Shown here: one piece after another, positions 24,635 through 39,722 of the stretch
How positions within the stretch are numbered: position 1 is the stretch's first letter
How the letters are laid out: each line of letters starts with the position of its first letter
Assembly (NCBI GenBank): GCA_021323705.1
Contig: JAJPKL010000028.1
Coordinates: 1-39,722, forward strand
Origin: Nitrososphaerota archaeon
Lineage (GTDB): Archaea; Thermoproteota; Nitrososphaeria; Nitrososphaerales; Nitrosopumilaceae
DNA length: 39,722 nt
Direction of reading: 5' to 3'
Notes under the pieces: generated by a model
Told to the model about the DNA's origin: nothing
Databases searched by the model: none
The model's input: only the letters and a program-made list of their open reading frames with translations
Made by a program: the position numbers and the translations under genes

Positions 24635-24700
24635 TTATTTTTTACTTGCATTTTGAATTAATATTCCAGGGTGATAGCAAGTGGCTTACACTGATACAAA

Positions 24701-24838
24701 ATGCGGGTGGGCAAGAGCTTGATTCACACATGTCCATTATGTCAAATTAAGATGGATCTTGACTATCACTATCCGTTCAAGTATTTCTGGTGTGATGATT
24801 GTAGGGAAAGAGTAAGAAGATATTGGAAACCATACTAG
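24701..24838 (+). CDS. 45-aa zinc-ribbon protein
   Basis: A short frame beginning ATG at 24,701 that encodes CPLC in its first third and CDDCRERVRRYWK near the end. The two CxxC pairs are separated by an aromatic stretch (YHYPFKYFW), a typical single zinc ribbon. It ends TAG at 24,838. There is no upstream ribosome binding site. Function unknown; a DNA- or protein-contacting accessory is possible. Confidence 0.6.
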   Translation: MRVGKSLIHTCPLCQIKMDLDYHYPFKYFWCDDCRERVRRYWKPY

Positions 24839-25119: not shown

Positions 25120-25449
25120 CTATTGGCTTAATCTTTGTAAAAATATTGCCAGATTCTGATTTTCATCATCCAGACCAATAAACGCGGTCTTGATCTTTTC
25201 TACGGTGACAAGATATGAATCACCAAACAAATATTTCAAGGCAGAGTTCAGAACATCAGGGTTTCGGTAGCAGTCAGAAAACGTAAGGCTGTGGTCTGCT
25301 AGAATTTCGCTGACTCTGGTATATGTCTGAAGTCCAATCTGCATTAATATTTTTTCGATAATTGATGCAACCACATCTGACATTAACTTCTCGCTATCCG
25401 CCAAATCTCTTCTCTCTCCTACCTGTGTACGGTAGAACATGACTATCAA
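25120..25449 (-). CDS. Thaumarchaeal-type small helical protein
   Basis: A 109-aa helical protein with the pattern IIEKILMQIGLQTYTRVSEI, SDCYRNPDVLNSALKYLFG and IKTAFIG. I associate this ('..DCy..P..L...L..lfG..y..iv..I...')  with a recurrent thaumarchaeal family of unknown function, from memory and unverified. It overlaps nothing and ends 3 bases after the PepSY-like gene, convergently. It is the last core gene before the mobile elements. Confidence 0.55.
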   Translation of the reverse strand: MIVMFYRTQVGERRDLADSEKLMSDVVASIIEKILMQIGLQTYTRVSEILADHSLTFSDCYRNPDVLNSALKYLFGDSYLVTVEKIKTAFIGLDDENQNLAIFLQRLSQ

Positions 25450-25504: not shown

Positions 25505-25605
25505 CTGCAAAAATGCTCATCACAGACGGTTTACAATCATACCGTATGCATACAAAAAGGAATTTTTGACACAGAAAGGACAGGGAATAGTCCACATAAA
25601 GTAAA
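25505..25605 (+). pseudogene. Relic of a DDE transposase
   Basis: ATG at 25,513 opens a short frame reading MLITDGLQSYRM before a stop; after a frame change the line continues TQKGQGIVHIK. Compare the resident transposases: VITDSLRTYEDAIRKEL then VAHIKT. The second Asp of the DDE triad (ITDGLQSY versus ITDSLRTY) and the HIK that follows are both recognisable, so I read this as a decayed relative of the same transposase. It lies in the 310-base gene-free stretch 25,450-25,759, with only AT-rich DNA and the E1 left repeat otherwise. Confidence 0.5.
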
Positions 25606-25661
25606 TCAGACTACAAGGTGATATAAATAATAACAAAATGATCCTAAGATTGAACAGTGTC

Positions 25662-25669
25662 ACAAAATG
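25662..25669. repeat. Left copy of the 8-bp direct repeat flanking E1
   Basis: ACAAAATG immediately before TACACTGG of E1. The identical 8-mer lies immediately after E1 at 32,050-32,057. This is what a target-site duplication of an IS6-type element would look like. A third ACAAAATG is at 25,633-25,640. Confidence 0.8.
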
Positions 25670-25770
25670 TACACTGGTAACTTGAGTGGAGATTTCTCAA
25701 CTTGAAATTAAGTGTTAATTTTAGGGTGATTTTAGACGGGTTGAAAAATGGGTGTTAAGTTAGGGGTGAT
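25670..25770 (+). repeat. E1 left terminal inverted repeat (101 bp)
   Basis: Begins TACACTGGTAACTTGAGTGG. By my ungapped count, it matches the reverse complement of 31,949-32,049 at 87 of 101 positions, with the outer 20 bases identical. GTGTTAA recurs at positions 43 and 83 and GGTGAT at 56 and 96 of the repeat, a 40-bp period. The stop codon of the HARE-HTH gene (25,760-25,762) lies inside the inner edge. Confidence 0.9.
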
Positions 25771-26011
25771 TTTTGTTTGAGTGTTTCGGATTCAACCCAT
25801 AATGCCCCATGCTTGTTTTAACAAATGGGGATTTTTCTCCATTTTTTTGAATATCACGAATAATTAGACTGCGTAAGGTTTGATCAGGAGTTTTACCTTT
25901 TGTATTCACAAGCCCACGCTTGATAATTTTAGAGGCAAGTTCGCCATAATGTAGTGGTTTTTTAGATTCCGTGAGTATTATTATTGCTGCTTCTTTGAAG
26001 GTTATTGGCAA
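25760..26011 (-). CDS. HARE-HTH-type winged helix protein (E1)
   Basis: An 83-aa protein with the pattern TFKEAAIIILTESKKPLHYG, ELASKIIKRGLVNTKGKTPD and a C-terminal strand FVKTSMGHYGLNPK. This is the HARE-HTH/HB1 fold that is often fused or placed next to restriction enzymes and chromatin proteins. It is the last gene of the E1 restriction-modification operon, 46 bases after the specificity subunit gene. Its coding end lies inside the E1 left repeat. Role probably in DNA recognition or regulation of the system. Confidence 0.75.
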   Translation of the reverse strand: MPITFKEAAIIILTESKKPLHYGELASKIIKRGLVNTKGKTPDQTLRSLIIRDIQKNGEKSPFVKTSMGHYGLNPKHSNKNHP

Positions 26012-26057
26012 CTTACATAACCATTACGATATTACAAATATTTAGTCCTTAGTAATC

Positions 26058-27530
26058 TCATTTCTGTTTTGTGAGTAATTTAATAAATTCTTGTTTAACA
26101 TATTCCTTCTCTGTTTCAATTTCTTTTTCGTTTTTTTCTTTTTCTTTTAACCAGTTTTTTATATTATCAATGATAGTTTTTTGCTGTTCATCTGTTTTTG
26201 GGATGATTACTTGTAATTGTTTTAAATTTTCAGGATTTATGTTGTTACCACCACCTCTTGCTTCGTTTGTTGACCCTGTTGCTAAGTAGTTGACCTGAGC
26301 GTTATTCAAGTTAGATCCAGTTTGCAGATACATTATCTGTGCCTGTCCTAGTTCTGAATTTATAAAATTCGCAATATATAGAGGATGAATCTTTTTTTCT
26401 GGCTTAATTCGGAATCTAAGAACGAATGAACCAAATGTGAAACCATCTTCTTTTTTTGAGATCCATGCACAGGTTCCAACAGTCCTACTTCGGGTTATAA
26501 GTAAATCATTTTCATGTACTAATTTCTCTTCTGGTACTTCATCAACATAACGAAGATTGTCATGATGAATCATGGAATCTAATTCTATATTTTCAACATT
26601 GATAAACGGAATTACACTTTTCTCTTTCCCAAAGTTATTAACTCCATATTCTATATCCCCATCTACCAATTCGCCTAACGATACAGCCTGTTTAGATTTG
26701 AGATATTCTTTTACCATATAGGTTAAAGGATGATTCCATATAAAATCAAGCCTGTCGGTTACTGAATCAAAATGACTCGAAAAGTAATCGTATAATTTGA
26801 TAGGAGTCTTTAAGTGTGATTCTGAAAGAATCGCATTACGAATTTTCCACCGCAGGTTTTTTCTTATTTCAAGAAGATTCATAATTTTTTTATCCATGAT
26901 AGAAATTTTATCTACAATTTCTTTTTGCACATCATTTTTAGTTGTTTTTGGAGGACAGATAATTTTGATCCTGCTAATTTCAGTGGTATTGATATTGGGT
27001 TGATCTACATCGTGTTTGTTTCTTTCAAATTGGATTTGACCAAATGGTGAGTTTAGATAATATGTCAGAAACTGCGGATTGATTTTTTCTTCATCAGGCT
27101 GTAGACGTGCTATAGATTGGCTGATATTCGCCTTTTCTTTACTATCATAAACTGCACATCTACCAATAGATCCAGCCATAGTAACTAAAACATCATTTTT
27201 GTGTAACTGGGATGATTTCAATTTTGTATAATGAATTACGTCATCAATATAGTTCAGATCTGTGAGATCTAGTTTGCCATTCTGTATATTCCTAGCACCA
27301 AGAAAAGGAATGCCCTTCATGGGAAAAATATAATCTTCAGGAGTATTCCCATTTACTATGTCAGTTTTAAGAAGCGTACTTAGTTCTACAATATCGTAGC
27401 CACAGGATGATAGAAAGGTTATTAGATTTTCAAATTTTGGATGCCAGTAATCATAATCCAATCTATCGTCCTGAGTCATCATCAGTGGATCTCTAGTAAA
27501 AAATTCTGATTCAGTTTTGATTTTTCTCAA
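26058..27530 (-). CDS. hsdS: Type I-like specificity subunit HsdS (E1)
   Basis: A 490-aa protein with two target-recognition regions, each followed by a conserved helical segment. Motifs include KGIPFLGARNIQNGKLDLTD and NDVLVTMAGSIGRCAVYD in the first half, then VIPFINVENIEL and ENDLLITRSRTVGTCAWI in the second. HsdS determines the DNA sequence that the system recognises. Its start overlaps the end of the methyltransferase gene by 20 bases, so the pair is co-translated. Two complete recognition halves are consistent with a bipartite target. Confidence 0.9.
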   Translation of the reverse strand: MRKIKTESEFFTRDPLMMTQDDRLDYDYWHPKFENLITFLSSCGYDIVELSTLLKTDIVNGNTPEDYIFPMKGIPFLGARNIQNGKLDLTDLNYIDDVIHYTKLKSSQLHKNDVLVTMAGSIGRCAVYDSKEKANISQSIARLQPDEEKINPQFLTYYLNSPFGQIQFERNKHDVDQPNINTTEISRIKIICPPKTTKNDVQKEIVDKISIMDKKIMNLLEIRKNLRWKIRNAILSESHLKTPIKLYDYFSSHFDSVTDRLDFIWNHPLTYMVKEYLKSKQAVSLGELVDGDIEYGVNNFGKEKSVIPFINVENIELDSMIHHDNLRYVDEVPEEKLVHENDLLITRSRTVGTCAWISKKEDGFTFGSFVLRFRIKPEKKIHPLYIANFINSELGQAQIMYLQTGSNLNNAQVNYLATGSTNEARGGGNNINPENLKQLQVIIPKTDEQQKTIIDNIKNWLKEKEKNEKEIETEKEYVKQEFIKLLTKQK

Positions 27531-29523
27531 TAAGACCGCCTGTAAAGCCTAACGATTCAAATCTTTTACGATTGAATTGTAGCCCGTTATAACAACTTAG
27601 AATCTTTGATTTGAAAGACTGATATTCAGAGAGAATATCTTTTCCTTCCGCATTCATGAGGTGATTAGGAGCAATGCGTTTCTTAGTATCCATTCCAACT
27701 CTAGCAGCATGAGCATAGAATATAGGTTCCGTCTGAATGGCAGTAGAATCATCCTTTTTTATTGCGTACAATATTGAAGTTTTTGTTGGTGTTTTTGAAA
27801 CTGGGATGAATGTTTCGTTTGTCAGAGATATTATTGCTTTGATGTAAAAATTCTGACGTATGAATTGTCTTGTTTTTTTATAATCATCAGTGTTGAGAAT
27901 ACCTTCATCTAAAATAATCAATAATTTTCCACCTCGCCATTCAGGCTTGGCATCTGAATCTCTTTTATCTTTTAAATAATATTTACATACGTTAACAAAT
28001 AACGCACTACCTTTCATAACATTACCCGTGATAGTTTCTTCCCCGTTTTCATTTTCTTCATCTGGTTCTTCAATAGTACGAGGAATTACTTCTATTCTTT
28101 TTAGAAATTCTTCACCATATTTTCTGTAATTTATTTTACCTAGAGGCGGATTAGTAAGAATGACATCTACTTTGTTATCGAGTCCTCTCTTATCCAATAA
28201 GAGTCCATCATCGCTCCAAATATTGGATTTTCCATCATCATGAATGTACATGTTCATTTTAGCAAGTTTAGCTACGTTTGGATCATTATCAGTACCAAAC
28301 AATTGTTTTCGTATTATTGATTCAGTTGTTTTGTCAGAGTCTTTCCCAGACACTTTGTGAATCATATCATCCATAGCCCAAATCAAAAATCTTCCAGTTC
28401 CACAGGCAGGGTCTAAAACAAGATCACTTGTTTCAAGTTCTGCAAGTTTTACCATGAATTGTACTACTGATTTGGGGGTGAAAAACTGACCTACTTTAAC
28501 GTCCTTACTAGATCGTAATGCGAGAACCTCATAAGCAGCCCCCAGACCGTCTACTTTTTTCAAGTAAAAATGATATTTTTCCAACGGTTCGATTACATTT
28601 TTTATAACAAAATCATCATCTAGTCCCTCTGCCAAATGATCAGATTTCGTAAATAGTTCGGATTTTTGAAATTCTTCTTCATTCCGTATTATTTCAAACA
28701 ATTTGTGAATTGCTTTTTTCTTCTTTGTCTGTCCATGAGCCTGTTGAAATTCATTGAATGTTTTAACTGTAAAATAGTTTTTCCCTTCTCGCCTGCTTTC
28801 CTTTTTTTCTTCAAACAATTTGATAAAAACCAGATATATCAGATTTTTGATTGCCTCTGAACCTGTTGCAATTCCAAACTCTCGTAATCTATCTTCTATC
28901 TTTTCTAACTCCCCAAATAAATCCTGTTCAAGTTTTGCGTGCTGTAAAATTTCCTTATCGTCAATATCTTTCTTCAATGTGAAATCGTTAGGAAATAATT
29001 GCTCAAAGAATATACTTAGAATTTTATCATCGTCTACAAACTCGTAATATCTATCAAAAACTGTTAATATCTGATCTATTGGATAAATATCCCTATGACT
29101 TGTACTAAGTTTTTGAATTATTAATTCAAAGGTAGGAAAACATATTGGAATGATCTTTTGGTCGAGTGTTTTCCTTGCTGTGTTATAATCATGTATAGCA
29201 TTAATCATTCTGTAGTGAGTGGACGGAGATACATAAACTGTGAAACATTTTTTCTTAGAAAATTCTTTTTTTCTTTTATTAAGATGGTCAGAAATAGAAA
29301 GCATTTCTCTATCAGAAGATGACTTTGTTGTTTGTGTAACTTCTACATTGATATGTATTTGTTCATTCCATAAATCAATATCAGGCAAACCCCCCGTAGA
29401 TTGTGATGTTGTAGTTCCATTATGTCTAATCTGAAAGCCACGTTTCTCAAATGCATCTTTTAGATCCTTTGTGATTTGTTGTTCAAGTTGCGTTCTAGGA
29501 TCTAAATCGTCATATTTTGTCAT
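27511..29523 (-). CDS. Nuclease-like/adenine methyltransferase fusion (E1)
   Basis: A 670-aa protein. Residues about 45-110 form a possible PD-(D/E)xK domain: LPDID (P47, D48, D50) and NVEVTQ (E61), but the usual Lys after E is Thr/Gln. Residues about 200-330 are helical like HsdM N-terminal regions. The N6-adenine methyltransferase follows: FFTPKSVV, motif I DPACGTGRFL (371-380), motif IV LTNPPLGK (near 456-463). Together with the downstream HsdS this resembles a type IIG/type I hybrid system without a separate HsdR. Start ATG overlaps the TGA of the zinc protein gene. A separate R gene is absent from E1. Confidence 0.85.
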   Translation of the reverse strand: MTKYDDLDPRTQLEQQITKDLKDAFEKRGFQIRHNGTTTSQSTGGLPDIDLWNEQIHINVEVTQTTKSSSDREMLSISDHLNKRKKEFSKKKCFTVYVSPSTHYRMINAIHDYNTARKTLDQKIIPICFPTFELIIQKLSTSHRDIYPIDQILTVFDRYYEFVDDDKILSIFFEQLFPNDFTLKKDIDDKEILQHAKLEQDLFGELEKIEDRLREFGIATGSEAIKNLIYLVFIKLFEEKKESRREGKNYFTVKTFNEFQQAHGQTKKKKAIHKLFEIIRNEEEFQKSELFTKSDHLAEGLDDDFVIKNVIEPLEKYHFYLKKVDGLGAAYEVLALRSSKDVKVGQFFTPKSVVQFMVKLAELETSDLVLDPACGTGRFLIWAMDDMIHKVSGKDSDKTTESIIRKQLFGTDNDPNVAKLAKMNMYIHDDGKSNIWSDDGLLLDKRGLDNKVDVILTNPPLGKINYRKYGEEFLKRIEVIPRTIEEPDEENENGEETITGNVMKGSALFVNVCKYYLKDKRDSDAKPEWRGGKLLIILDEGILNTDDYKKTRQFIRQNFYIKAIISLTNETFIPVSKTPTKTSILYAIKKDDSTAIQTEPIFYAHAARVGMDTKKRIAPNHLMNAEGKDILSEYQSFKSKILSCYNGLQFNRKRFESLGFTGGLIEKNQN

Positions 29524-29681
29524 TTCTTACCTTCTCCCTTTCTGAACTTCTGTTTAGGTCTATTCCAGTAAGGGCTTTTGCACTTTGGGCAGATCACTGG
29601 TTCAATCGTAATGTCTCTTGGTGCCCATTCATGATTGCATCTAAGGCACTTGAAACCGTCTATTTTTATCCGATACGACAT
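29520..29681 (-). CDS. 53-aa four-cysteine zinc-ribbon protein (E1 core)
   Basis: Reads YRIKIDGFKCLRCNHEW near the start, then CPKC and the basic tail SPYWNRPKQKFRKGEGKK. CxxC pairs at residues 12-15 and 31-34 form a zinc ribbon. The matching E2 protein is identical at 46 of 53 positions by my count. I recall this type of domain (CxxCgHeWxPR...CPkCkSPYWnrPr) from small bacterial and archaeal proteins of unknown role, often in mobile or toxin-antitoxin contexts. Its stop overlaps the methyltransferase start (ATGA), so it is the operon's first gene, and it faces the transposase gene. Confidence 0.85.
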   Translation of the reverse strand: MSYRIKIDGFKCLRCNHEWAPRDITIEPVICPKCKSPYWNRPKQKFRKGEGKK

Positions 29682-29770
29682 ATGATATTAGCTATATTAT
29701 ACACATATTTTAATAAACATATCTTATTACACAATGTTTATATGATCTGTACACTATACCTAAAAGGTAT
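29682..29770. promoter_or_regulatory. Divergent promoter between zinc protein and transposase (E1)
   Basis: The 89 bases are strongly conserved with E2 36,690-36,778. TTTATAT (29,737-29,743) lies about 28 bases before the transposase ATG and is a good TATA box; TGTACACT (29,748-29,755) sits between TATA and start and repeats the outer end of the terminal repeats (TG|TACACT). A run of TATATTATACAC and TTTTAATAA serves the opposite strand. Confidence 0.65.
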
Positions 29771-31126
29771 ATGATGAAACAAGAAAACAAAAGAAGCGAA
29801 AAAGCGATCGAAATTTTCTCCGAAGCCAACTCGATCAGAAAGATAACCAAGAACCACTATCGGGTCAAATCGCAAACTCAGGACAAGATCTACAACGTGA
29901 CAAAACTCAGAGATGCCGATGTCTGGGTTTGTGACTGCGCTGATTTCAACTTCCGTCTTACCCACAAGGATGACAAACGATGTAAGCATATCCGAAGTGT
30001 TCTCATACTGCAAGATTCTATCGAACAGGAACTAAACATTGAGAAACTTGACATTCCAAAAGTATGTCCAAAATGCAGTTCTACAACAATAATAAAGAAC
30101 GGTATTAGAATAGTTCAGAACAATCTCAAAAGACAGCGATATGCATGCAAGCAATGCAATTTCAAATTCTCATTCCATGAAAGCGGATTTTCTGGGATGC
30201 GAATTAGTCCTCAAATCATCATAGAATCGATAAACCTCAAGATGTCTGGCATGTCATACCGAAACATAAAGAGGCACATCAAGGCAACACATGATGTAGA
30301 GGTAAGCCATGTATCGATTACAAAATGGGTAGGAAAGTACATGGCAATCATCAAGGAATATGCTGACACGCTTGTACCAGAACTATCTGATGTCTGGTCG
30401 CTTGACGAGGCAATGATAAACGTCAAAGACACCAAGGAGATGAAGGGCAAGGGATTCTATGACTGGCTTTGGACTGTGATTGACCCAAAGACTAGATTCA
30501 TTCTTGCAACTGAGATCTCAAAAAGGCGTGAAATTGTAGATGCAAGAAGCATCGTATCAAAAGCAAAAGAGGTATCAAGACCAAACTTTGTGATTACGGA
30601 TTCGCTTAGGACATACGAGGACGCAATAAGAAAAGAACTCGACTGTAGAAAAGTTGCACACATCAAGACAAATGCGATCAAGGACGGATTTCAGAACCGA
30701 CCAATAGAGAGGTATCACAACGAACTACGAGAAAAGACAAAATCCATGAGAGGTCTAGGCAATGACGAATCGGCTCAAAAGTATGCTGATGCTTATGCAA
30801 CATATCATAACTTTGCAAGAGAGCATACGGGACTTGAAGGAAAAACACCAGCCGAAGCAGCAAAGATTGACCTTGGACTAGGCAATAACAAGATAAAGGA
30901 TCTAATCACAAAGAGCCAAGAATCTACCAAATGTAACTTTGTAGTGCAGTTGGGAAAACGAATTGATATGGTCAACATCATAAACGAAAAAGACTGTATC
31001 AAGGTGATTGCAAAAGGCTGGATGGAGAGACCGACTTGGAGAGAGATAAACGATATTCTAAGACTGAATCAATTCAGTTGGCTTTCAAATGGAAAAGACA
31101 GTTGTTGGATGAAACTATCCTCCTAA
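29771..31126 (+). CDS. IS6-like DDE transposase with SWIM zinc finger (E1)
   Basis: A 451-aa protein. A SWIM finger is at C54, C56, C71, H73 (CxCx14CxH), then a zinc ribbon at C99, C102, C126, C129, an HTH-like region (about 150-190), and the catalytic triad D212 (WSLDEAM), D277 (VITDSLRTY), E313 (PIERYHNELRE), with 35 residues between the last two. The KGFYDWLW and IERYHNELR motifs fit an IS6/IS240-like rve fold. A C-terminal extension (about 390-451) is not in ordinary IS6 enzymes. ATGATG gives two possible starts; 29,771 is used. It probably acts on the 101-bp repeats. Confidence 0.9.
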   Translation: MMKQENKRSEKAIEIFSEANSIRKITKNHYRVKSQTQDKIYNVTKLRDADVWVCDCADFNFRLTHKDDKRCKHIRSVLILQDSIEQELNIEKLDIPKVCPKCSSTTIIKNGIRIVQNNLKRQRYACKQCNFKFSFHESGFSGMRISPQIIIESINLKMSGMSYRNIKRHIKATHDVEVSHVSITKWVGKYMAIIKEYADTLVPELSDVWSLDEAMINVKDTKEMKGKGFYDWLWTVIDPKTRFILATEISKRREIVDARSIVSKAKEVSRPNFVITDSLRTYEDAIRKELDCRKVAHIKTNAIKDGFQNRPIERYHNELREKTKSMRGLGNDESAQKYADAYATYHNFAREHTGLEGKTPAEAAKIDLGLGNNKIKDLITKSQESTKCNFVVQLGKRIDMVNIINEKDCIKVIAKGWMERPTWREINDILRLNQFSWLSNGKDSCWMKLSS

Positions 31127-31160
31127 GTTTTTTATTTCCATGTTTAGGTGATGTCTGACA

Positions 31161-31322
31161 ATGGTTGTTTCAGATAAAGAGATAGTAAGACGATTGAAGG
31201 AAACAATAGAATTTCTTAAAGTGGAATCTGTTGGCGGTGTTTGGAATACGCCTCAGTTAATCGATATGTTAGAGGACTTGTTCAAGGAAGATTCTAAAAT
31301 CTTTAAGAATAAAGAGCGATAG
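31161..31322 (+). CDS. Small hypothetical protein (E1)
   Basis: A 53-aa helical frame starting ATG at 31,161: SDKEIVRRLKETIEFLKVES then VWNTPQLIDMLEDLF. The Glu/Lys-rich amphipathic segments look coding, but the family is not known. It follows the transposase by 34 bases and may share its transcript. It overlaps the minus-strand 78-aa gene at its 3' end by 20 bases. Confidence 0.45.
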   Translation: MVVSDKEIVRRLKETIEFLKVESVGGVWNTPQLIDMLEDLFKEDSKIFKNKER

Positions 31323-31539
31323 TAAGTTTCTTCATATTGGTCATCTTAGCCACTAGACAATCAGGGCACATGATGACCCCTTCATTGTTAGTAAGTTGGG
31401 TCATAGCCTTTCCATATTCAGCGATCTGATTTTTCAAAGATGGTAACCAAACAGTTTCATAGAAAATTATACAACAAGTTGGAATCTTGTGTCTGATTCC
31501 AGTCCAAAATTCAATATCTACTGGTTTTTTGTCTTGCAA
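31303..31539 (-). CDS. Small Cys-containing hypothetical protein (E1)
   Basis: A 78-aa protein with the segment RHKIPTCCIIFYETVWLPSL and, near the end, MCPDCLVAKMTN, two paired cysteine groups that could bind zinc. I have a faint memory of similar 'HKIP.CC..FY' proteins from archaeal and phage genomes, unverified. It is the only minus-strand gene on the right side of E1. Confidence 0.5.
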   Translation of the reverse strand: MQDKKPVDIEFWTGIRHKIPTCCIIFYETVWLPSLKNQIAEYGKAMTQLTNNEGVIMCPDCLVAKMTNMKKLTIALYS

Positions 31540-31617
31540 GATCCCGTAGTAAAGAGCGATCAGCGATCTAAATCTTTCGGTAAATGTTTAATGACTTGTT
31601 ATTGACACCTGATCCAA

Positions 31618-31809
31618 ATGGAACCAAATCTTAGTTATGCTGAATGTCCTAATTGTTACAAGAAAGCAAGTGGAAAGACTAAAGTCAATGAAATCTTTGG
31701 CTTTAGAAGATTCAAAGGGCATCTGTATGTTCAGTCGCATTGCAAAGAGTGCAGAAAAGCAGAGCAAAAAGACAGGCAAAGAAAAGGGATAGAACAACCT
31801 AGGAGTTAG
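31618..31809 (+). CDS. Small zinc-binding protein (E1)
   Basis: A 63-aa protein with CPNC (near residue 10-13) and HCKEC (near 44-48), separated by NEIFGFRRFKGHLYVQS. It resembles the Cys-pair part of HNH-like or phage zinc proteins, but no catalytic His pattern is seen. It ends 1 base before the coiled-coil gene and they are likely co-transcribed. Confidence 0.6.
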   Translation: MEPNLSYAECPNCYKKASGKTKVNEIFGFRRFKGHLYVQSHCKECRKAEQKDRQRKGIEQPRS

Positions 31810-31810
31810 C

Positions 31811-31948
31811 ATGTCTGCAAACCAAGAAAGACGTATTCAAAAAATTGAGACTAGAATAGATTCGATGGAAAAAAGGCTGAAAGACTTTGATGATAGGATA
31901 AAGAAACTAGAGCAAACTAACATAAGGCGACAAAGTATTAGAGGATAA
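31811..31948 (+). CDS. 45-aa coiled-coil protein at the right end (E1 core)
   Basis: Starts ATG at 31,811 (AT-rich, no clear ribosome site) with QERRIQKIETRIDSMEKR, a heptad-repeat coiled coil, then a basic end. The E2 right-end gene has the same start: QERRIQKIETRLDTVERD. The TAA stop (31,946-31,948) ends at the base before the E1 right repeat. Because both elements keep this gene in this place, it is probably part of the transposition machinery or its control. Function unknown. Confidence 0.75.
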   Translation: MSANQERRIQKIETRIDSMEKRLKDFDDRIKKLEQTNIRRQSIRG

Positions 31949-32049
31949 ATCACCACTAAATTAACATCCACTTTTCAGCCCTGACAAAATCACCCCAAAA
32001 TTAACACTCAATTTCAAGTCGGGAAATCCCCACTCAAGTTACCAGTGTA
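31949..32049 (-). repeat. E1 right terminal inverted repeat (101 bp)
   Basis: Ends CCAGTGTA at 32,049 and is the inverted counterpart of the left repeat (87/101 identical by my count). It directly abuts the stop codon of the coiled-coil gene. Confidence 0.9.
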
Positions 32050-32057
32050 ACAAAATG
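32050..32057. repeat. Right copy of the 8-bp direct repeat, shared with E2
   Basis: ACAAAATG, identical to the base run left of E1. It directly joins E1 and E2: CCAGTGTA, ACAAAATG, TACACTGG. It is both the right flank of E1 and the left flank of E2. Confidence 0.85.
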
Positions 32058-32158
32058 TACACTGGATAGTTAGAGGTTGAAACCACTGACTCAAACAAGT
32101 TGTAAAGAAACGGGTCATTTTTTGGGGTCAAAAAGTGGGTGTAAAGTTACGGTTGATT
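32058..32158 (+). repeat. E2 left terminal inverted repeat (101 bp)
   Basis: Begins TACACTGGATAGTTAGAGGT and matches the reverse complement of 39,614-39,714 at 84 of 101 positions by my ungapped count, with the outer 25 bases identical. TGTAAAG occurs twice (near 44 and 83 of the repeat), followed by GGGTCATT and GGTTGATT, a period of about 40 like that of E1. Confidence 0.9.
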
Positions 32159-32372
32159 AGTCTCTATCATCTGTTAGAAATGCAATTACTAAACCTATGA
32201 GAAAGACTATTCCTAATGCCTTTGCAAAATCTCCAAAGGATACAGCATTTTGCTTTTCTTGTTCTAATAAATGCCTTAGTTCAATAGCCTCATCTGTTGT
32301 AATGATTCCCATCTGAAGTTTATGAGTTAGTTCTTCCTTTCTTGTAATTTGATCAGGAGTAAGATCAACCAT
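32157..32372 (-). CDS. Small membrane protein (E2)
   Basis: A 71-aa protein. Residues 1-40 are helical and charged (LTPDQITRKEELTHKLQMGI and TTDEAIELRHLLEQEK); residues about 50-66 (ALGIVFLIGLVIAFL) form one membrane helix. Its start overlaps the end of the upstream 86-aa gene by 8 bases. The stop overlaps the inner edge of the E2 left repeat by 2 bases. No family recognised. Confidence 0.65.
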   Translation of the reverse strand: MVDLTPDQITRKEELTHKLQMGIITTDEAIELRHLLEQEKQNAVSFGDFAKALGIVFLIGLVIAFLTDDRD

Positions 32373-32625
32373 TTCCAGTATTTTCTCCTCTAAATGTATT
32401 TAATAATGCAAGTAGTTCTGTTATGTTATTTCTTACCCAAGTTGCTAACGTTGGGTCATTTTGAATACCATTAACCAGCCTATTCTCTATTTTATCAAGC
32501 CGTTCTGATAATCGCCTTTGTTCATTTGAAGATTTTTCAACATGTCTTCCTGTTGCAAAACCTGCTCCAAATACTGCAATCGCTCCAACTATTATTGCAA
32601 TTACAAGATTGGGATCTGTGCTCAA
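32365..32625 (-). CDS. Small membrane-anchored coiled-coil protein (E2)
   Basis: An 86-aa protein with one N-terminal membrane helix (about 7-26, VIAIIVGAIAVFGAGFATG), then a charged heptad-like region (EQRRLSERLDKIENRLVNGI) and a C-terminal helix. Co-translated with the following 71-aa gene by overlap. Could be two parts of one membrane complex; function unknown. Confidence 0.65.
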   Translation of the reverse strand: MSTDPNLVIAIIVGAIAVFGAGFATGRHVEKSSNEQRRLSERLDKIENRLVNGIQNDPTLATWVRNNITELLALLNTFRGENTGNG

Positions 32626-32671
32626 ACTGGTTTGATCATATATTTCAACTATTTAAGAAAAACTGAATTTC

Positions 32672-33139
32672 GTGAATGAAACAATCTATAAAAGTCACAA
32701 TGCCATAAACTTATCAGTGTTTAGACTATCGCTATTTCCCAAGAAAAGAAAGTCAGTAAGTAGAAGGAAGAGAACCTCCAAGCGAGTGAATATCGCCAAA
32801 ACTAAATTTAGGACATTTAATGATGGTTACAAACTTGGAGACAAACTGGTAAAGGCATGGAACTCACAACCAAATCCACCACCTGTCTACATTGCTGGTA
32901 ATAGAATACATCATGGCTTGGTTGGAGTTTTGTTGGGTCTTGCAGGCATAGTCATTGAACAGCCTGCGTTAATTGGTCTTGGAACCAGACTGGCAATAGA
33001 TGATATTTCAGATATGCCGAACTGGTTGAATTTTGAAAATAGTTCGACACAGCCACAATTCCAAACAGGCTATGTACAACCTATGCAATATCTTCCAACT
33101 TCATTTCCATCTCTTGGACAGAGAAATGAATTTGTTTAA
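32672..33139 (+). CDS. Hypothetical protein with conserved RIHHG-type region (E2)
   Basis: A 155-aa protein, GTG start. The N-terminus is basic (KKRKSVSRRKRTSKR). The middle has GNRIHHGLVGVLLGLAG, then a hydrophobic stretch ending LGTRLAIDDISDMPNWLNF. The 'R-I-H-H-G ... D-D-x-x-D ... W' pattern recurs, from memory, in archaeal virus and provirus proteins of unknown role; the two His and the acidic group could bind a metal. It faces the small membrane pair across a short promoter. Confidence 0.6.
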   Translation: MNETIYKSHNAINLSVFRLSLFPKKRKSVSRRKRTSKRVNIAKTKFRTFNDGYKLGDKLVKAWNSQPNPPPVYIAGNRIHHGLVGVLLGLAGIVIEQPALIGLGTRLAIDDISDMPNWLNFENSSTQPQFQTGYVQPMQYLPTSFPSLGQRNEFV

Positions 33140-33149
33140 GACCTAAAAA

Positions 33150-33329
33150 TTATTTCTTTGATTTTGGAATAGTCCAAGAACTTTTTGGACTCTGATAATG
33201 GCGGAAACGTTTCTCACACTTGCATATATATTGACTTACTGAAACAGTTTTCAAATATTGCCAAGTTTTTAATGGATTTTGGGTTTGAATTTTACCGCAA
33301 AAAGGACATTTTGGGTTGGAATTAATCAT
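33150..33329 (-). CDS. 59-aa zinc protein following the TBP-like gene (E2)
   Basis: Starts ATG at 33,329 and overlaps the end of the TBP-like gene by 8 bases. The first Cys pair is CPFCGK and the second is CKCEKRFRHY, like a zinc ribbon. The overlap suggests co-translation with the TBP-like protein. It is too short to be a TFB. It could be a partner of it. Confidence 0.65.
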   Translation of the reverse strand: MINSNPKCPFCGKIQTQNPLKTWQYLKTVSVSQYICKCEKRFRHYQSPKSSWTIPKSKK

Positions 33330-33879
33330 GATACATACTTTGGATTTTCTTCATAAGATCAAAATATGCATGGTTTAATTCTTCCAATGTTTTTGCACCT
33401 GTAATAATGACTTTTCCTGTTGCAAAAATTAGACAAACTATACTACCATAAGTTCTATAAACAATTCCTGAGAATTGATCTGGCTCATAAATACTTCGAG
33501 GCAACATTACAGATAAAATATTCAAATTTATCGTTTTTTCCAATGAAATGGAGGATACGATATTGTGTATTCTGGGTATGATATTAAATGATTTTATGAA
33601 TTTGTATTTTTTTAAAATTTGAGATGCTCTCTTTAGATCATGATATGCTTGATCAGGACTTTTAGAGCCAACTGAAATTAATTTGCCTGATGCAAAAACA
33701 ACTACTTTTCCAAACATGATATTATCTTTAACATATCCGCATTTGTAGGCTTTTAAATTAGAACTTAGAAAACGATGTTTATTAAAAGATAGAATATCGA
33801 CTTTATGATTAAGATCAGCAGTACATACCACATTTGAGATTTTGATTTCCTTCCTTATTGTATATTCTAAATTTTGCAT
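33322..33879 (-). CDS. Divergent TATA-binding protein (TBP) on transposon E2
   Basis: A 185-aa protein with the two-repeat TBP fold. Repeat 1 (about 13-92) has KISNVVCTADLNHKVDI and VVVFASGKLISVGSKS; repeat 2 (about 103-180) has IPRIHNIVSSISLEKTINL, YEPDQFSGIVYR (131-142) and CLIFATGKVIITGAKT. The second repeat fits canonical archaeal TBP, except FPG is FSG. In repeat 1 the matching stirrup (about 41-52, NLKAYKCGYVKD) has lost the YEPEQFPGLVYR signature, so DNA contact may be altered. It starts a minus-strand operon with the 59-aa zinc gene. A TBP as mobile-element cargo is unusual. Confidence 0.88.
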   Translation of the reverse strand: MQNLEYTIRKEIKISNVVCTADLNHKVDILSFNKHRFLSSNLKAYKCGYVKDNIMFGKVVVFASGKLISVGSKSPDQAYHDLKRASQILKKYKFIKSFNIIPRIHNIVSSISLEKTINLNILSVMLPRSIYEPDQFSGIVYRTYGSIVCLIFATGKVIITGAKTLEELNHAYFDLMKKIQSMYHD

Positions 33880-33949
33880 TATTTCTAATTCTATTCATAC
33901 TAATAAAAAACATTGTTTAATATTCAATTAAGTTAGGAATGAAATAAAA

Positions 33950-34513
33950 TTAGCCCGATACTATTTGTTTTTCAAATATCTCATCAATTTTTTGCCTTAT
34001 AAAAAGATCAATTTTTTGTCTTAGAACAAGTATTGATTTTACAGGTTTCATGATCTCAATCTGCTTGGAATGTGCGGGAATTTCAAAATCTGCTTCATAC
34101 AGTTGATCTAAAGTCAATGTTTTTGACCCTTCACTTACACTTAATTCTTGTAATTGTTTTTGATAAAAAATTGAAAAAAACTCAGGATCAATTTTTTGTA
34201 TGGCGTCTGATCTTACTTTAAAAAAACCCGCATGATGATTAAGAGCAAATTTCTGTGTTCCTGACTTGTAAGTCATAGAACCTGCACTTCCATCTAAACT
34301 GAGGATTATTCCTTCTCCTTCAAAGATTGTTATTGGCTCATCTTGTTTTGTCCTACCATTAACAGATACCAATCTGTCTATAGTGTTATGTTCTTGATTA
34401 CCTCCCCAAATCGGAATAAATTCACCTCCATATTGAATTGATTTGTAAATTGCCTCATCTGTTAAGCCAAAATCTCCTTTTTTTACTGGTTCAAACATAT
34501 CAAGGAATTTCAA
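33950..34513 (-). CDS. Single-TRD specificity subunit HsdS-like (E2)
   Basis: A 187-aa protein of about half the length of a normal HsdS. It has one target-recognition domain (FIPIWGGNQEHNTIDRLV, GEGIILSLDGSAGSMTYK, FALNHHAGFFKV, TLTLDQLYEADFEIP) and one C-terminal helical arm (LVLRQKIDLFIRQKIDEIFEK). It would have to dimerise to read a two-part site. Its start overlaps the nuclease/methyltransferase end by 4 bases. Confidence 0.85.
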   Translation of the reverse strand: MKFLDMFEPVKKGDFGLTDEAIYKSIQYGGEFIPIWGGNQEHNTIDRLVSVNGRTKQDEPITIFEGEGIILSLDGSAGSMTYKSGTQKFALNHHAGFFKVRSDAIQKIDPEFFSIFYQKQLQELSVSEGSKTLTLDQLYEADFEIPAHSKQIEIMKPVKSILVLRQKIDLFIRQKIDEIFEKQIVSG

Positions 34514-36528
34514 ATTATGTTTCTTACCTCTTCTTTTATTTGACTTACATTTTCTAGTAGTTGACTCACAGTAATATAATGTGGTTTAAATGGTCTTAGA
34601 TAATATTCAGGTAAAAGACAATAATATGATTTAGGATCTGTTATTTTAGTTAATTCAACAAAACCGCCTTTTCTAAGTTTAATCTTTTGACCTTGTTCGT
34701 TTATCCATTCTGTTCCATTTGTTTTTTCATCATCAAAACGCTTCCATGCTTCTTCTAACCGTCCTACCATTTCTTCCCCTTCTGTACTAACCCATCCTGA
34801 TATTTCATCATGCATCCAACCATTACGATTATTCCTAAGTTTAGTCGGAAATCTCTTATCTGAATTTGCTAATCCATCATTGTCTATAATATACATCCAA
34901 ATTGGCTTTTTTTGGATTTTTGTATTTGATTTATTTTTCTTAGTAATGTAAACGGCATAAGTTTTTTCTTTTGTATATGGTGCAAAAGCAAATTTTGGTA
35001 ATGACACGATTGCATCAATATCACATTTCTCTAGTAGCTCTTTTCGTAATTCAGAAAGACTTGGATTTTCTAATACTCCATCAGGTTGTATTATACATGC
35101 ATGACCTCCATCTTTTAATAATTTTATCACTTTACATAGAAATGCAATTTCGGTTCGATTTGATGATATTATGGAAGTTTCTGCTTTTATTGTACCAGCA
35201 CCATAAGGGGGATTTGTTACTATATACTTCCACTGTTCATCTTCAAAATTTCGAACAAGAGCATTATCAGGAATCATATTAGTGTGACCATCGCCAACTA
35301 AAAACATATTCAGTTTAGTTCTGGAAATATTTTCTTTCCTAACATCGATTCCCCAAAAACATTCTTTTTCAAGAAATTTGACAGCGTTTTTTGTAAGAGT
35401 ATTAGTTTTTGCATATTGTTGATGGAGTATCTTGAAACTTTCAGTTAGAAATCCACCAGTACCGCAAGCAGGATCAAGTATTTTGAATTTATTTTGTTCA
35501 TCAAAGTATTGTTCATCTAAAAGAAGCAATTTGGCTAATATGTATGCATAATGTCTACGTGTAAAATATTCACCAAATTCTTTTTTCTCTTTTCCACTTG
35601 CAAACATTTCATATACTGCACCGAATAAGTCAAAACCACACCCATGAAGCGGTTTCATTGAATTAATCACATCGTAAATCTGTTTTACTTCATCTTTTGC
35701 AACTAAGGGTTTTTCTGTAGCATTTCCAGTAATAATTACACGTACTTTTTCCATAAAATTAACAAATTCTCCAAATTGAGATTCTTTTTCTAATCTCTGA
35801 ATATATTGAGATAAATTTGCAACAACTTTTTCGGAGGGAAAATTCTCAGTCACATCCGAACAATCTGACCAATATATTTTGGTATTATCCTTCTTACCAC
35901 TAAGCATTTCTTTTTCTTCAAAATATTCCAACGAAATGAAACCTATTGTAAAGTCTATTTTTTGAACATTATTCTCAAAATTTATGTTTCTATAAATTTT
36001 AGCAAGTTCCCAAAGTTTTTTGTTAAATACTGCTTCAGAAATAACTGATAGAGAATCCACATTTGTAAGAATATTATCTAAAGTGGGATCTTTTCCTAAT
36101 TTTGATTTTATCAGTCTTAATATATCAATAGTTTGAAATTCCCGAATTGGGTTTTTGTTAAGTTTGATTTCCTCGCCAGTTTTAGTATTATAGAAAATAC
36201 TTGTTTTACAGTTTGTCACTATGAAATATGGTAGTTTTAATTTTGGTGCTTTTTCTTTGCCCTGTTTTATTGCATCATGCCAAAATGAATCTCCCACAGT
36301 TGCATCATCTTTGGCTTCTGCATAAGCAACTAAATTTTCTATAAATTCAGTATCATTTTTTTTGTTTGGTTCATATTCAAATTCAGAAATTAACAAATCT
36401 GGTCGTTTAGAACCAGTGTATTTAGTAAATGTAGTATCATTAACGATTTGTTTTATCGGTATTGATAACTGACTGACTAAAACTTCATGAATGAATCGTG
36501 TTACTGTTAATGCCTCTTGTTTACCCAT
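34510..36528 (-). CDS. Nuclease/adenine methyltransferase fusion (E2)
   Basis: A 672-aa protein. The N-terminal domain has a complete PD-(D/E)xK pattern: RPDLLI (D44) and AYAEAKDD (E71, K73), then a Type I-like region. The methyltransferase has EYFTRRHYAYIL, motif I DPACGTGGFL (352-361) and motif IV VTNPPYGAG. It resembles type IIG/type I fusion enzymes with a separate S subunit. Unlike E1, the nuclease Lys is intact. Its start overlaps the zinc protein stop (TAATG). Confidence 0.88.
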   Translation of the reverse strand: MGKQEALTVTRFIHEVLVSQLSIPIKQIVNDTTFTKYTGSKRPDLLISEFEYEPNKKNDTEFIENLVAYAEAKDDATVGDSFWHDAIKQGKEKAPKLKLPYFIVTNCKTSIFYNTKTGEEIKLNKNPIREFQTIDILRLIKSKLGKDPTLDNILTNVDSLSVISEAVFNKKLWELAKIYRNINFENNVQKIDFTIGFISLEYFEEKEMLSGKKDNTKIYWSDCSDVTENFPSEKVVANLSQYIQRLEKESQFGEFVNFMEKVRVIITGNATEKPLVAKDEVKQIYDVINSMKPLHGCGFDLFGAVYEMFASGKEKKEFGEYFTRRHYAYILAKLLLLDEQYFDEQNKFKILDPACGTGGFLTESFKILHQQYAKTNTLTKNAVKFLEKECFWGIDVRKENISRTKLNMFLVGDGHTNMIPDNALVRNFEDEQWKYIVTNPPYGAGTIKAETSIISSNRTEIAFLCKVIKLLKDGGHACIIQPDGVLENPSLSELRKELLEKCDIDAIVSLPKFAFAPYTKEKTYAVYITKKNKSNTKIQKKPIWMYIIDNDGLANSDKRFPTKLRNNRNGWMHDEISGWVSTEGEEMVGRLEEAWKRFDDEKTNGTEWINEQGQKIKLRKGGFVELTKITDPKSYYCLLPEYYLRPFKPHYITVSQLLENVSQIKEEVRNII

Positions 36529-36689
36529 TACTTCTTCCCTTCTCCTTTTCTGAACTTCTGTTTAGGTCTATTCCAGTAAGGACTTTTGCAATCTGGGCAT
36601 ATTACTGGTTCTTTGTTAATGTCTCTAGGAATCCACTCATGACTGCACCGTAGACATTTGAAACCATCTATCTTTACTCGATATGCCAT
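36528..36689 (-). CDS. 53-aa four-cysteine zinc-ribbon protein (E2 core)
   Basis: Counterpart of the E1 gene, starting AYRVKIDGFKCLRCSHEW, then CPDC and the same basic tail (KSPYWNRPKQKFRKGEGKK). Seven of 53 residues differ by my count. Its TAA overlaps the methyltransferase ATG. It is the first gene of the minus-strand operon and shares the divergent promoter with the transposase. Confidence 0.85.
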   Translation of the reverse strand: MAYRVKIDGFKCLRCSHEWIPRDINKEPVICPDCKSPYWNRPKQKFRKGEGKK

Positions 36690-36778
36690 TTGCTATTAGC
36701 TATATTATACACATATTTTAATAAACATATTGTATTACACAATGTTTATATTATATGTACACTATACCTAAAGATAAT
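36690..36778. promoter_or_regulatory. Divergent promoter between zinc protein and transposase (E2)
   Basis: Same length and layout as the E1 region. TTTATA lies before the transposase start and TGTACACT is at 36,756-36,763, matching the outer tip of the terminal repeats. Conservation of this non-coding stretch is comparable to the flanking genes. Confidence 0.65.
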
Positions 36779-38131
36779 ATGATGACAGAAAACCCAAGAA
36801 ACGAAAAAGGAATACAAATCCTCTCCAAAGGAAACCACATCACAAAACTAGGCAAGAACCACTACAGGGTAGAATCACAAACCTCAGACAAGTCATACAG
36901 CGTAAGAAAGACACCTGATGCTGACGTATGGGAATGCACTTGTGCGGATTTTAACTTCAATCTAAGAAAAGGCAAGGACGACAAGAACTGCAAGCACATA
37001 CTAGCCTGCATGATGCTACAAACTACAGTACAGACTGAAAAGAAAATAGAAAAGATAGACTTGCCAAAAGTCTGTCCAAAGTGCCAGTCCACAACATACA
37101 GAAAACATGGATATAGGATCGTAAAGGAAAAAATCAAAAGACAACGCTATGACTGTCTGCAATGCAACCACAAGTTCACTCTAAACGACAGTGGCTTTGC
37201 AAACATGAGATTCAGTCCTCAAATCATAACAGAATGCATCAACCTGAGTATGAATGGCATGTCATTGCGAAACATTGCAAGACATATCAAGTCAGTCCAT
37301 GATGTAACTGTATCACATGGTGCCATAGCAGACTGGGTCAAAAAATACATGGGATTGATCAAGGAATATGCCGACTCTCAAATACCAGAACTTTCTGATG
37401 TATGGTCGCTTGACGAGGCAATGATTAACGTCAAAGATACCAAAGAGATGAAAGGTAAGGGATTCTATGACTGGCTTTGGACTGCAATAGATCCAAAGAC
37501 AAGATTTGTCATTGCAACCCAAATCTCAAAGAGGCGTGAAATTGTTGATGCACGAAACATCATCGCAAAAGGAAAACAAGTATCACAACCAAACTATGTG
37601 ATTACCGATTCCTTGAGAACCTATGAACAGGCAATCAGAAAAGAACTTGACAACCGCAAGGTTGCACACATAAAGACAAATGCTCTCAAAGATGGATTCC
37701 AAAACAGACCGATTGAGAGATACCATAATGAACTGCGAGAGAAACTAAAGGCAAAGCGTGGTCTTGGAAACGATGAATCGGCACAAAGGTTTGCAGAGAA
37801 CTATAGAACCTACCACAATTTTGTCAGAGGACACACTGGACTAGATGGCTCTACACCTGCGGAAGCATCAGGAATAGACCTAGAACTTGGACACGACAAG
37901 ATAAGGGATCTCATAACAAAATCTGTAGAATCCAAGAGTAATTTTGCTGTACAATTAGGGAAGAGAATCGAGAAAGTCAACATAGTGAATGAAAAGGATT
38001 CCATCAAGATAACCTGCAAGGGTTGGATGGAAAAGCAGACTTGGAGAGAGATAAATGACATCCTAAAACTGAGTGGTTTTAACTGGCTGTCAAACGGAAA
38101 GGATAGTTGCTGGCTAAAACTACTCTCCTAA
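36779..38131 (+). CDS. IS6-like DDE transposase with SWIM zinc finger (E2)
   Basis: The E2 paralogue: SWIM finger in WECTCADFNF ... CKH, zinc ribbon CPKC ... CLQC, triad in VWSLDEAM, VITDSLRTY and IERYHNELRE. The catalytic core is about 80% identical to E1 by eye, with many silent differences, so both seem under purifying selection. The frame extends to 36,755 but homology with E1 supports ATGATG at 36,779 (450 aa). A C-terminal extension is also present. Confidence 0.9.
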   Translation: MMTENPRNEKGIQILSKGNHITKLGKNHYRVESQTSDKSYSVRKTPDADVWECTCADFNFNLRKGKDDKNCKHILACMMLQTTVQTEKKIEKIDLPKVCPKCQSTTYRKHGYRIVKEKIKRQRYDCLQCNHKFTLNDSGFANMRFSPQIITECINLSMNGMSLRNIARHIKSVHDVTVSHGAIADWVKKYMGLIKEYADSQIPELSDVWSLDEAMINVKDTKEMKGKGFYDWLWTAIDPKTRFVIATQISKRREIVDARNIIAKGKQVSQPNYVITDSLRTYEQAIRKELDNRKVAHIKTNALKDGFQNRPIERYHNELREKLKAKRGLGNDESAQRFAENYRTYHNFVRGHTGLDGSTPAEASGIDLELGHDKIRDLITKSVESKSNFAVQLGKRIEKVNIVNEKDSIKITCKGWMEKQTWREINDILKLSGFNWLSNGKDSCWLKLLS

Positions 38132-38244
38132 ATTTTTTGAATTTTACCTTTACAATTAGTCAATGATCGACATAAGGATCTCTTTATAAGCAAAAATTGG
38201 CTTAAGACAGGCGTTGAAAATTATAATTTTTTATTTTCACGGGC

Positions 38245-38274
38245 AATGCAAAATAATGCAAAATAACGCAAATA
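38245..38274. repeat. Three tandem 10-bp repeats before the TIR-domain gene
   Basis: AATGCAAAAT (38,245), AATGCAAAAT (38,255) and AACGCAAATA (38,265) follow one another. The last copy runs into ATATATTTT (38,271-38,280), a likely TATA box about 20 bases before the TTG start at 38,294. Ten-base spacing puts the copies on one face of the helix, so they may be a protein-binding operator. Confidence 0.55.
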
Positions 38275-38293
38275 TATTTTCTGGGTGTTATAA

Positions 38294-39424
38294 TTGACAT
38301 CTAAGGAAAAAACCATCAATTTAGAGAACATTCCTATTGAATCCAAGAGTACAAGAGGTAGAAAGGCAGGTGCGATTCCATTTCCAAGAAATTCTTTGAC
38401 AGATGCTATAAGAGTAGCAAAATCAATTTGGAATGATAACGCAGGTCGACCATTTCCTTTAGGTGATATTGCAACCAAACTTAACTATAGCCCAACATCT
38501 GGTAATTTTAGAGATTTAATACGATCTGCTGAAAGATATGGATTAACAGAAGGTACATGGGTACAAGACACAACAAAACCAATTGCACTCTCAGCTTTAG
38601 GGATGTCAATTGTTGCACCAAAAGTAGATGAAGATCCAAATGCGTACATACGAAAAGCATTAGAGACACCAGAGGTATTCAAAGAGTTTCTTAATTCTAT
38701 TAATGGTCGTGTCATTCCTCCTGAAGATTCATGTAAAAATTCTCTTATCAGAGATCACCATATTCTAAAAGAAGATGCTAATGTTTGCTATGCAGTCTTG
38801 ATGAAAAACATACAAGAATTGAACCTTTCACAACCTAACACGCAAGGAACGCCTTATCTCAGATTAGATAAACTGTCAGCAACTCTGCCAACTTTACCCA
38901 TAACAGAGGAAAGTGAAAAGATAGAAGGCAATATGGAACAAATTGTAGAGTCAGAGGAATCTGAAAAACCAACATCTAAAGAAACAATTCAAACAAAATC
39001 AATACCACGTGTTTTCATCAGTCATAGTAAGAACAAGAAGATACTTGACCAATTGAAAGAGATGTTGAAATTTGGTGAGTTCGAATATAGAATTGCCGAA
39101 GAGAAAGAAACTACAGCAATTCCCATTTCAGAAAAGGTTTTTGGTCTTATGAGAGAATGTAATTGTGCTATAATAAACATAAGTGCCGATGATGAAATGA
39201 AGCAGGCGGACGAATCCTATAGAATTAACGAGAATGTACTTATTGAGATTGGTGGTGCTTTCATCCATTATGATAAACGAGTTATACTTCTAGTTGACAA
39301 AAGACTCACTCTGCCTAGTAATTTACAAGGTCTTTACCGATGCGAATACGAAGGTGATGAACTTTCATGGACGGTGGCAATGAAACTACAAAAAGCACTT
39401 GCTGAATTTAAAGAGAAAATTTAG
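38294..39424 (+). CDS. wHTH protein with C-terminal TIR-like domain (E2)
   Basis: A 376-aa protein. Residues about 34-108 form a winged-helix (LTDAIRVAKSIWNDNAGRPF and the GLTEGTWV turn), like DUF5343. A charged linker (about 205-237) leads to a TIR-like domain (about 239-370): RVFISHSKNKKILDQL, ISEKVFGLMRECNCAIIN (with candidate catalytic E280), NENVLIEIGGAFIHY and VILLVDKR. It resembles the TIR-like domain of bacterial/archaeal defence effectors (PF10137-like), so NAD-cleaving activity is possible but unproved. TTG start after a TATA-like box; leaderless likely. It sits between transposase and coiled-coil gene. Confidence 0.75.
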   Translation: MTSKEKTINLENIPIESKSTRGRKAGAIPFPRNSLTDAIRVAKSIWNDNAGRPFPLGDIATKLNYSPTSGNFRDLIRSAERYGLTEGTWVQDTTKPIALSALGMSIVAPKVDEDPNAYIRKALETPEVFKEFLNSINGRVIPPEDSCKNSLIRDHHILKEDANVCYAVLMKNIQELNLSQPNTQGTPYLRLDKLSATLPTLPITEESEKIEGNMEQIVESEESEKPTSKETIQTKSIPRVFISHSKNKKILDQLKEMLKFGEFEYRIAEEKETTAIPISEKVFGLMRECNCAIINISADDEMKQADESYRINENVLIEIGGAFIHYDKRVILLVDKRLTLPSNLQGLYRCEYEGDELSWTVAMKLQKALAEFKEKI

Positions 39425-39472
39425 ATATTCTCCCTAAGAACTTTTTATATTAGATTTTCATTCATTTACTAA

Positions 39473-39613
39473 TTGTCAGCAGATCAGGAAAGACGTATTC
39501 AAAAAATTGAGACTAGGTTGGATACAGTAGAAAGAGACATGAAATCTCTTAGGGATAGAGTGAAGAAATTAGAAGATCTTAACACGAGACTCCAAGGTCT
39601 CCGAAGAACCTGA
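39473..39613 (+). CDS. 46-aa coiled-coil protein at the right end (E2 core)
   Basis: TTG start at 39,473. The protein begins SADQERRIQKIETRLDTVE and is a heptad coiled coil like its E1 partner (QERRIQKIETRIDSMEKR). The TGA (39,611-39,613) ends exactly at the base before the E2 right repeat, as in E1. The nearby TTTTTATATTAG (about 39,442-39,453) is a TATA-like box. Confidence 0.72.
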   Translation: MSADQERRIQKIETRLDTVERDMKSLRDRVKKLEDLNTRLQGLRRT

Positions 39614-39714
39614 AATCAACCTAAACTTTACACTCCTTTTTTCATATCAAAAAATGACCCGAAACTTTACAACTTGTTTGTGTCATCACTTTCAACCTCT
39701 AACTATCCAGTGTA
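39614..39714 (-). repeat. E2 right terminal inverted repeat (101 bp)
   Basis: Ends CCAGTGTA at 39,714, the inverted counterpart of 32,058-32,158 (84/101 identical by my count). It directly abuts the stop codon of the coiled-coil gene. Only 8 further bases (GCTTACCA) are in the window. Confidence 0.9.
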
Positions 39715-39722
39715 GCTTACCA

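Follow-up and report, generated by a model that had tools for sequence, protein, structure and literature searches.

Why does one and the same 8-mer, ACAAAATG, recur at the edges of two large mobile elements and of a short remnant beside them? The window, by which we mean the whole stretch of 39,722 nucleotides that was analysed, is an entire contig (C17) of an archaeal genome of 1.84 Mb in 44 contigs. A first-pass annotation had read the order of 8-mer, remnant, 8-mer, element E1, 8-mer and element E2 as a decayed earlier insertion followed by E1 and E2, with newcomers entering beside an existing end. Its three coordinates for the 8-mer (25633-25640, 25662-25669 and 32050-32057) are exact, and the 21 bases between the first two copies end in CAGTGTC as it described. 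The features up to the right edge of E1 are as follows:

24669-24740, + strand: remains of the C-terminus of a decayed IS6-type transposase from a different subfamily; it reads GDSKWLTLIQNA..., resembling the C-terminus of the intact G203 copy (L012), and holds ACAAAATG at 24696
25508-25640, + strand: decayed central fragment of an IS6-type transposase, last codons NNNKM (AACAAAATG)
25633-25640, no strand: first ACAAAATG, in the conserved transposase codons NNNKM; probable left target-site duplication (TSD) of X
25641-25661, - strand: relic X, the outermost 21 bp of a sister element, whose outer end is at 25661
25662-25669, no strand: left TSD of E1 (ACAAAATG), an exact repeat flanking the terminal inverted repeats (TIRs), and also the 8 bp adjoining X
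25670-32049, + strand: E1, IS6-related cargo transposon of 6380 bp with 103-bp TIRs (86% complementary) and an 8-bp TSD
26058-27530, - strand: E1 cargo, restriction-modification specificity subunit (Methylase_S; Pfam PF01420, E 1e-20)
27511-29523, - strand: E1 cargo, N6 DNA methylase with AlwI-type endonuclease region (Pfam PF02384, E 4e-32; PF09491, E 2e-5)
29771-31126, + strand: E1 transposase, 451 aa (Pfam DDE_Tnp_IS240, PF13610, E 4e-16; NCBIfam IS6, 109 bits, cut-off 125)
32050-32057, no strand: right TSD of E1, an exact repeat; the same 8 bp abut E2

The number of ACAAAATG copies is ordinary, with 6 on both strands of the window vs 4.2 expected and 26 of 100 shuffles reaching 6, and the chance of finding the 8-mer at one given place is about 3e-5. 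It is therefore the position of the copies and not their count that is remarkable, because the second and third abut both ends of E1, of which they are a clean 8-bp TSD. The concern that the 8-mer might be common by chance was thus justified for its count but not for its exact abutment to the TIR ends, and the further copy expected near 24,695 does exist, at 24696, within coding sequence of a decayed IS6-type transposase (codons IQNA). Chance repeats of an AT-rich 8-mer together with a chance CAGTGT-like sequence would agree with this count, and also with a family-wide search for the junction pattern in 250 genomes, in which hits stayed at control level because the ends diverge and exact hits in G041 and G208 came without matching terminal repeats. 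Such coincidence is contradicted, however, by the exact abutment to the TIR ends, by the fact that the 21 bp are homologous to sister ends and by independent arrays in two complete genomes (see below), and we consider it scarcely credible. The ends of E1 (25670-25772 and 31947-32049) contain repeated TGTTAA-TT-GGG-type motifs around 40 bp apart, perhaps representing several predicted transposase binding sites per end.

The remnant is a true relic as the first-pass annotation had suspected, since sister elements in G115, G182, G102 and G180 have ends that match positions 25641-25661, at best with 86-93% identity. Immediately to its left, the sequence from 25508 to 25640 shares 70-79% nucleotide identity with transposase genes of around 12 relatives, and every alignment stops at 25640. 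The NNNKM codons continue as GAAAG in around 20 relatives, and it is there that the window switches to the relic. The first ACAAAATG had been taken simply as a flank of the remnant. Its bases belong to an older, different transposase gene, so that we infer its role as a TSD from its identity with 25662-25669, and on this basis it is probably the left TSD of X. The best reading of this sequence is that X inserted into the NNNKM codons with ACAAAATG as TSD and later lost all but 21 bp. In some relatives of X, AAATG directly precedes the corresponding 21 bp, which makes a short-repeat deletion plausible. The other half of this decayed transposase, looked for in the continuation of the sequence, was not found. 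A reading of the 21 bp as an ABC-ATPase gene start (MILRLNSVTK) was dropped, since they matched element ends and the part upstream of them matched transposases. A small unnamed gene at 25120-25449 of the window, possibly old cargo of X, has homologues within element B of G180 (L069 10041-10334; see below) and in other relatives.

To the right of the third 8-mer lies E2 with its cargo:

32058-39714, + strand: E2, cargo transposon of 7657 bp with 101-bp TIRs (83% complementary), flanked by ACAAAATG on the left and GCTTACCA on the right
33322-33879, - strand: E2 cargo, TATA-binding protein paralogue (Pfam TBP, E 2e-31)
33950-36528, - strand: E2 cargo, N6 DNA methylase and short specificity subunit (Pfam PF02384, E 2e-33; PF01420, E 7e-9)
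36755-38131, + strand: E2 transposase, 458 aa, 71% identical to that of E1
38294-39424, + strand: E2 cargo, TIR-domain (CAP12/Pycsar-type) effector (Pfam PF10137, E 5e-18)
39715-39722, + strand: GCTTACCA, chromosomal 8 bp at the edge of the radA promoter and last 8 bases of the contig, which continues on C3

The right flank of E2 is GCTTACCA, so this element has no matching TSD, and the common 8-mer that had been placed beside it is found at its left edge (32050) and not at its right. The continuation beyond the window was judged from contig ends of the same genome, one of which (C3; L281) opens with GCTTACCAATACCTTTATTAGG, i.e., first GCTTACCA and then the promoter and gene of RadA (Rad51 family, E 8e-92), whose ATG lies 37 bp past the 8-mer. 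This match shows that the right flank is real, and because the right end of E2 is present as a single copy in the genome, no second copy accounts for it. The mismatched flanks may have arisen when E2 deleted the DNA adjacent to it up to ACAAAATG, or when E2 copies recombined and thereby joined the flanks of two strains. Contigs C17 and C3 meet exactly at GCTTACCA, the junction of E2 and radA, and the assembly break at this point may mean that the junction is variable in the population.

The transposases of E1 and E2 are proteins of around 450 aa with a zinc-binding N-terminus and an IS240-type DDE domain (Pfam). NCBIfam IS6 is their best-scoring model, with scores of 109 and 113 that stay below the cut-off of 125, and their ends (TACACTGG) of around 100 bp and their lengths of 6.4 and 7.7 kb are not the short ends with GG tips and the size of around 0.8 kb typical of IS6. 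An AlphaFold model of the transposase reached a pLDDT of only 55, too low to be of use. No Cas1 match was found among the main E1 and E2 proteins (Pfam). Close relatives (around 52-91%) occur in Nitrosopumilus-type assemblies and in one labelled Nitrososphaera, and none was found in the viral contigs searched. A scan for 8-bp repeats flanking inverted ends yielded 19 elements of this clade (2.3-7.1 kb), often with restriction-modification or AAA-ATPase genes as cargo. Overall, an 8-bp TSD was seen for E1 and 28 further elements, though not for E2.

That new elements come to lie beside an existing end, as had been proposed from the window, is borne out by stacks in other genomes. In the complete genome of G180, two different elements form a double array of the form CAAAATAC-A-CAAAATAC-B-CAAAATAC, and at radA in G176, a complete genome from the held-out set, TGTTTCGA occurs four times around three elements of a triple array, with a fourth end beyond. 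Further elements lie exactly one TSD beside an existing end in G115, G289, G192 and G014. Among the first 19 elements, which served as discovery set, an IS6-like end stood at offset 0 beyond the TSD in 6 of 38 flanks (around 0.09 expected). Predictions were then written down before twelve unseen loci were opened, and the ten TSD elements that resulted had ends at offset 0 in 6 of 20 flanks (around 0.06 expected, P 2e-11), with the qualification that flanks within one stack are not independent. Element A of G180 (L069 7476-9824) has perfect 109-bp ends around an aldo/keto reductase and an NAD-dependent epimerase gene but no transposase, and it would therefore be a passenger that needs to be moved in trans. 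On the psmB side of the G180 array, a 72-bp repeat intervenes, so that no empty site was obtained there. This repeat is present twice in inverted orientation (L069 15719-15790 and L208 2914-2985) with CTTATTTG adjoining one end of each copy, as expected if intramolecular transposition had inverted the 28 kb between them.

Stacks of this kind might also form by ordinary recombination, with separate insertions joined via similar ends or short repeats and 8-mers that match because a flank was carried along. Events of this type are required in any case by the mismatched flanks of E2 and the deletion junction of X, and G211 carries an E2-like relic at the same radA edge. Against this stands that neighbours in G180 and G176 have different ends, yet the 8-mers are identical throughout each stack, and that no fixed 8-bp spacing would be expected beside unrelated ends. 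We therefore regard recombination as a very unlikely origin of the stacks and return to repeated insertion at a reusable site.

What defines this site? Each stack has a different 8-mer, so the hotspot is not defined by the 8-mer. The TSDs of the clade rather directly precede TATA-like boxes, with a distance to the start codon that is often 34-39 bp, and the promoters of radA, ssb and transcription factor B (TFB) recur. AT content peaks at positions +8 to +12 beyond the TSD (0.85 vs 0.61 at +8 to +11; 0.84 in the held-out set). In the discovery set, the ATG of an open reading frame lay 34-37 bp beyond the TSD at 7 of 17 sites vs 2.2% of random positions, with a window that was picked after seeing this first set and that held, slightly wider, in the second: there, the ATG was 36-39 bp beyond the TSD in 6 of 8 loci, three of which are the same orthologous promoter and hence not independent. 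This fixed spacing to a TATA-like box and a start codon is that of a promoter-directed type of site, while several TSD sites have no start codon nearby. Besides radA and ssb, the target genes include TFB (three loci with longer leaders), alanyl-tRNA synthetase and a ribosomal stalk protein. The elements upstream of TFB genes (L365, L059 and L150 in G223, G008 and G337) come from three different genera.

The same base may be used again and again. Of 30 genomes of the genus, most have an element or relics of element ends at one identical base of the ssb promoter. In G196 a 5.4-kb element lies there between two copies of TGATGGAC, and G202 and G187 have the homologous right-hand flank with a single 8-mer, the state without the G196 insertion. 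At radA, relatives that share the left neighbour of the window have a variable island there, which in G204, G208, G209 and G211 is closed by an element end or relic that is followed by 8 bp and then the radA promoter. Elements with a neighbouring end are also found at the radA promoter in G176, G014 and G237 of three other genera, so the array of the window is an instance of a family-wide radA hotspot. The earlier notion of a hotspot thus holds in that the place is reused, with the amendment that it is set by promoter position (radA here, ssb and TFB elsewhere) and not by the 8-mer sequence; that the hotspot is the promoter is new relative to that annotation.

A different possibility is that resident ends guide the newcomer, i.e., that the transposase binds an existing terminal repeat, even a decayed or foreign one, and sends the new element to the adjacent 8 bp, with promoters merely being where first insertions survive. 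This would fit the position of E1 between the end of X and E2, away from the promoter, and elements A and B of G180, flanked on neither side by a start codon at the usual distance. IS26, IS911 and IS30 likewise insert beside existing ends, as described in one review (PMC7986276). Many elements, however, stand alone at the promoter position with no other end beside them, different genera have insertions at the same promoters, and the promoter-side flanks do not resemble ends. We therefore think end guidance unlikely, though clearly less so than recombination. Since the promoter-side flanks showed no resemblance to element ends in a comparison with a 10-bp end model, one common sequence cue was not supported. 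In G176, TIR identity drops with distance from the promoter (34, 29 and 20 of 40), a gradient suggesting that newcomers are added at the promoter.

Our preferred reading is that E1, E2 and X are probably IS6-related cargo transposons of a defence type with promoter-proximal, stack-forming insertion at a radA hotspot. Their clade would be characterized by a DDE_Tnp_IS240 transposase with a zinc-binding N-terminus, ends of around 60-100 bp, an 8-bp TSD and restriction or other defence-type cargo. Insertion would place the 8-bp target immediately upstream of a TATA-like box and in many cases 34-39 bp ahead of the start codon, and each insertion would copy the target so that the site remains available and a stack grows whose neighbours are parted by one identical 8-mer. 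In the window, X would have entered ACAAAATG of the decayed transposase next to a sequence resembling a TATA box (TATTATTTATATC when read outward), followed by E1 at the same 8-mer, one TSD from the end of X. Most of X would then have been lost, and E2, whose right edge is the radA promoter, would have become linked to the 8-mer either through adjacent deletion of the IS6 type or because E2 copies recombined. Counting against the promoter reading are the different flanks of E2, the position of E1 away from the radA promoter and the fact that the 8-mer of X and E1 differs from the present 8-mer on the radA side.

The cue itself could be TBP/TFB or the open promoter. More specifically, and as a tentative proposal only, the clade, as a widespread group of archaeal DDE transposons, might pick its target via the basal transcription machinery, with TBP/TFB bound to the TATA box, and thereby stack defence genes upstream of genes that are essential, among them radA, ssb and TFB, with each insertion regenerating the target, a process in which the TBP of E2 may take part. 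E2 carries a TBP paralogue, and its clade inserts beside TATA-like boxes.

Among known systems, the IS6/IS26 family is similar in its IS240-type DDE domain, its 8-bp TSD and its new copies beside resident ends, and E2 could be explained by the intramolecular deletions (including adjacent deletion) and inversions that the family is known to make (PMC7986276). By contrast, members of the family are mostly around 0.8 kb long with 15-20-bp ends and GG tips, and a single one with a passenger gene, ISDsp3, is named in the review (PMC7986276), whereas the elements described here have 2-7 kb, ends of 60-100 bp and cargo. Moreover, targeted insertion of IS26 is conservative and exchanges flanks, while here the same 8-mer is copied at each insertion. 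IS911 and IS30 resemble our elements in insertion beside existing ends, as cited by the review (PMC7986276), but belong to other transposase families, and the neighbours seen here have different ends. Casposons at thaumarchaeal ef-2 are alike as related elements in tandem at one host gene with TSDs (PMC6563490), but they use a Cas1-type integrase and lie inside the coding gene and not upstream of promoters. These tandem casposons (PMC6563490) are the nearest parallel in the literature searched, in which we found no account of promoter-proximal targeting or of such stacks for IS6-type elements. The simple rule that emerges would be that mobile defence genes of ammonia-oxidizing archaea gather promoter-proximally, with the gene left intact and the site renewed by each insertion. 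In eukaryotes, the retroelements Ty1/Ty3 and the Dictyostelium TRE elements integrate at a set distance from Pol III promoters and leave the gene intact. The likeness would be one of working, in the set promoter distance and the intact gene. If the promoter is indeed the cue, prokaryotes would have, in this clade, a counterpart to the promoter-directed integration known from yeast and Dictyostelium.
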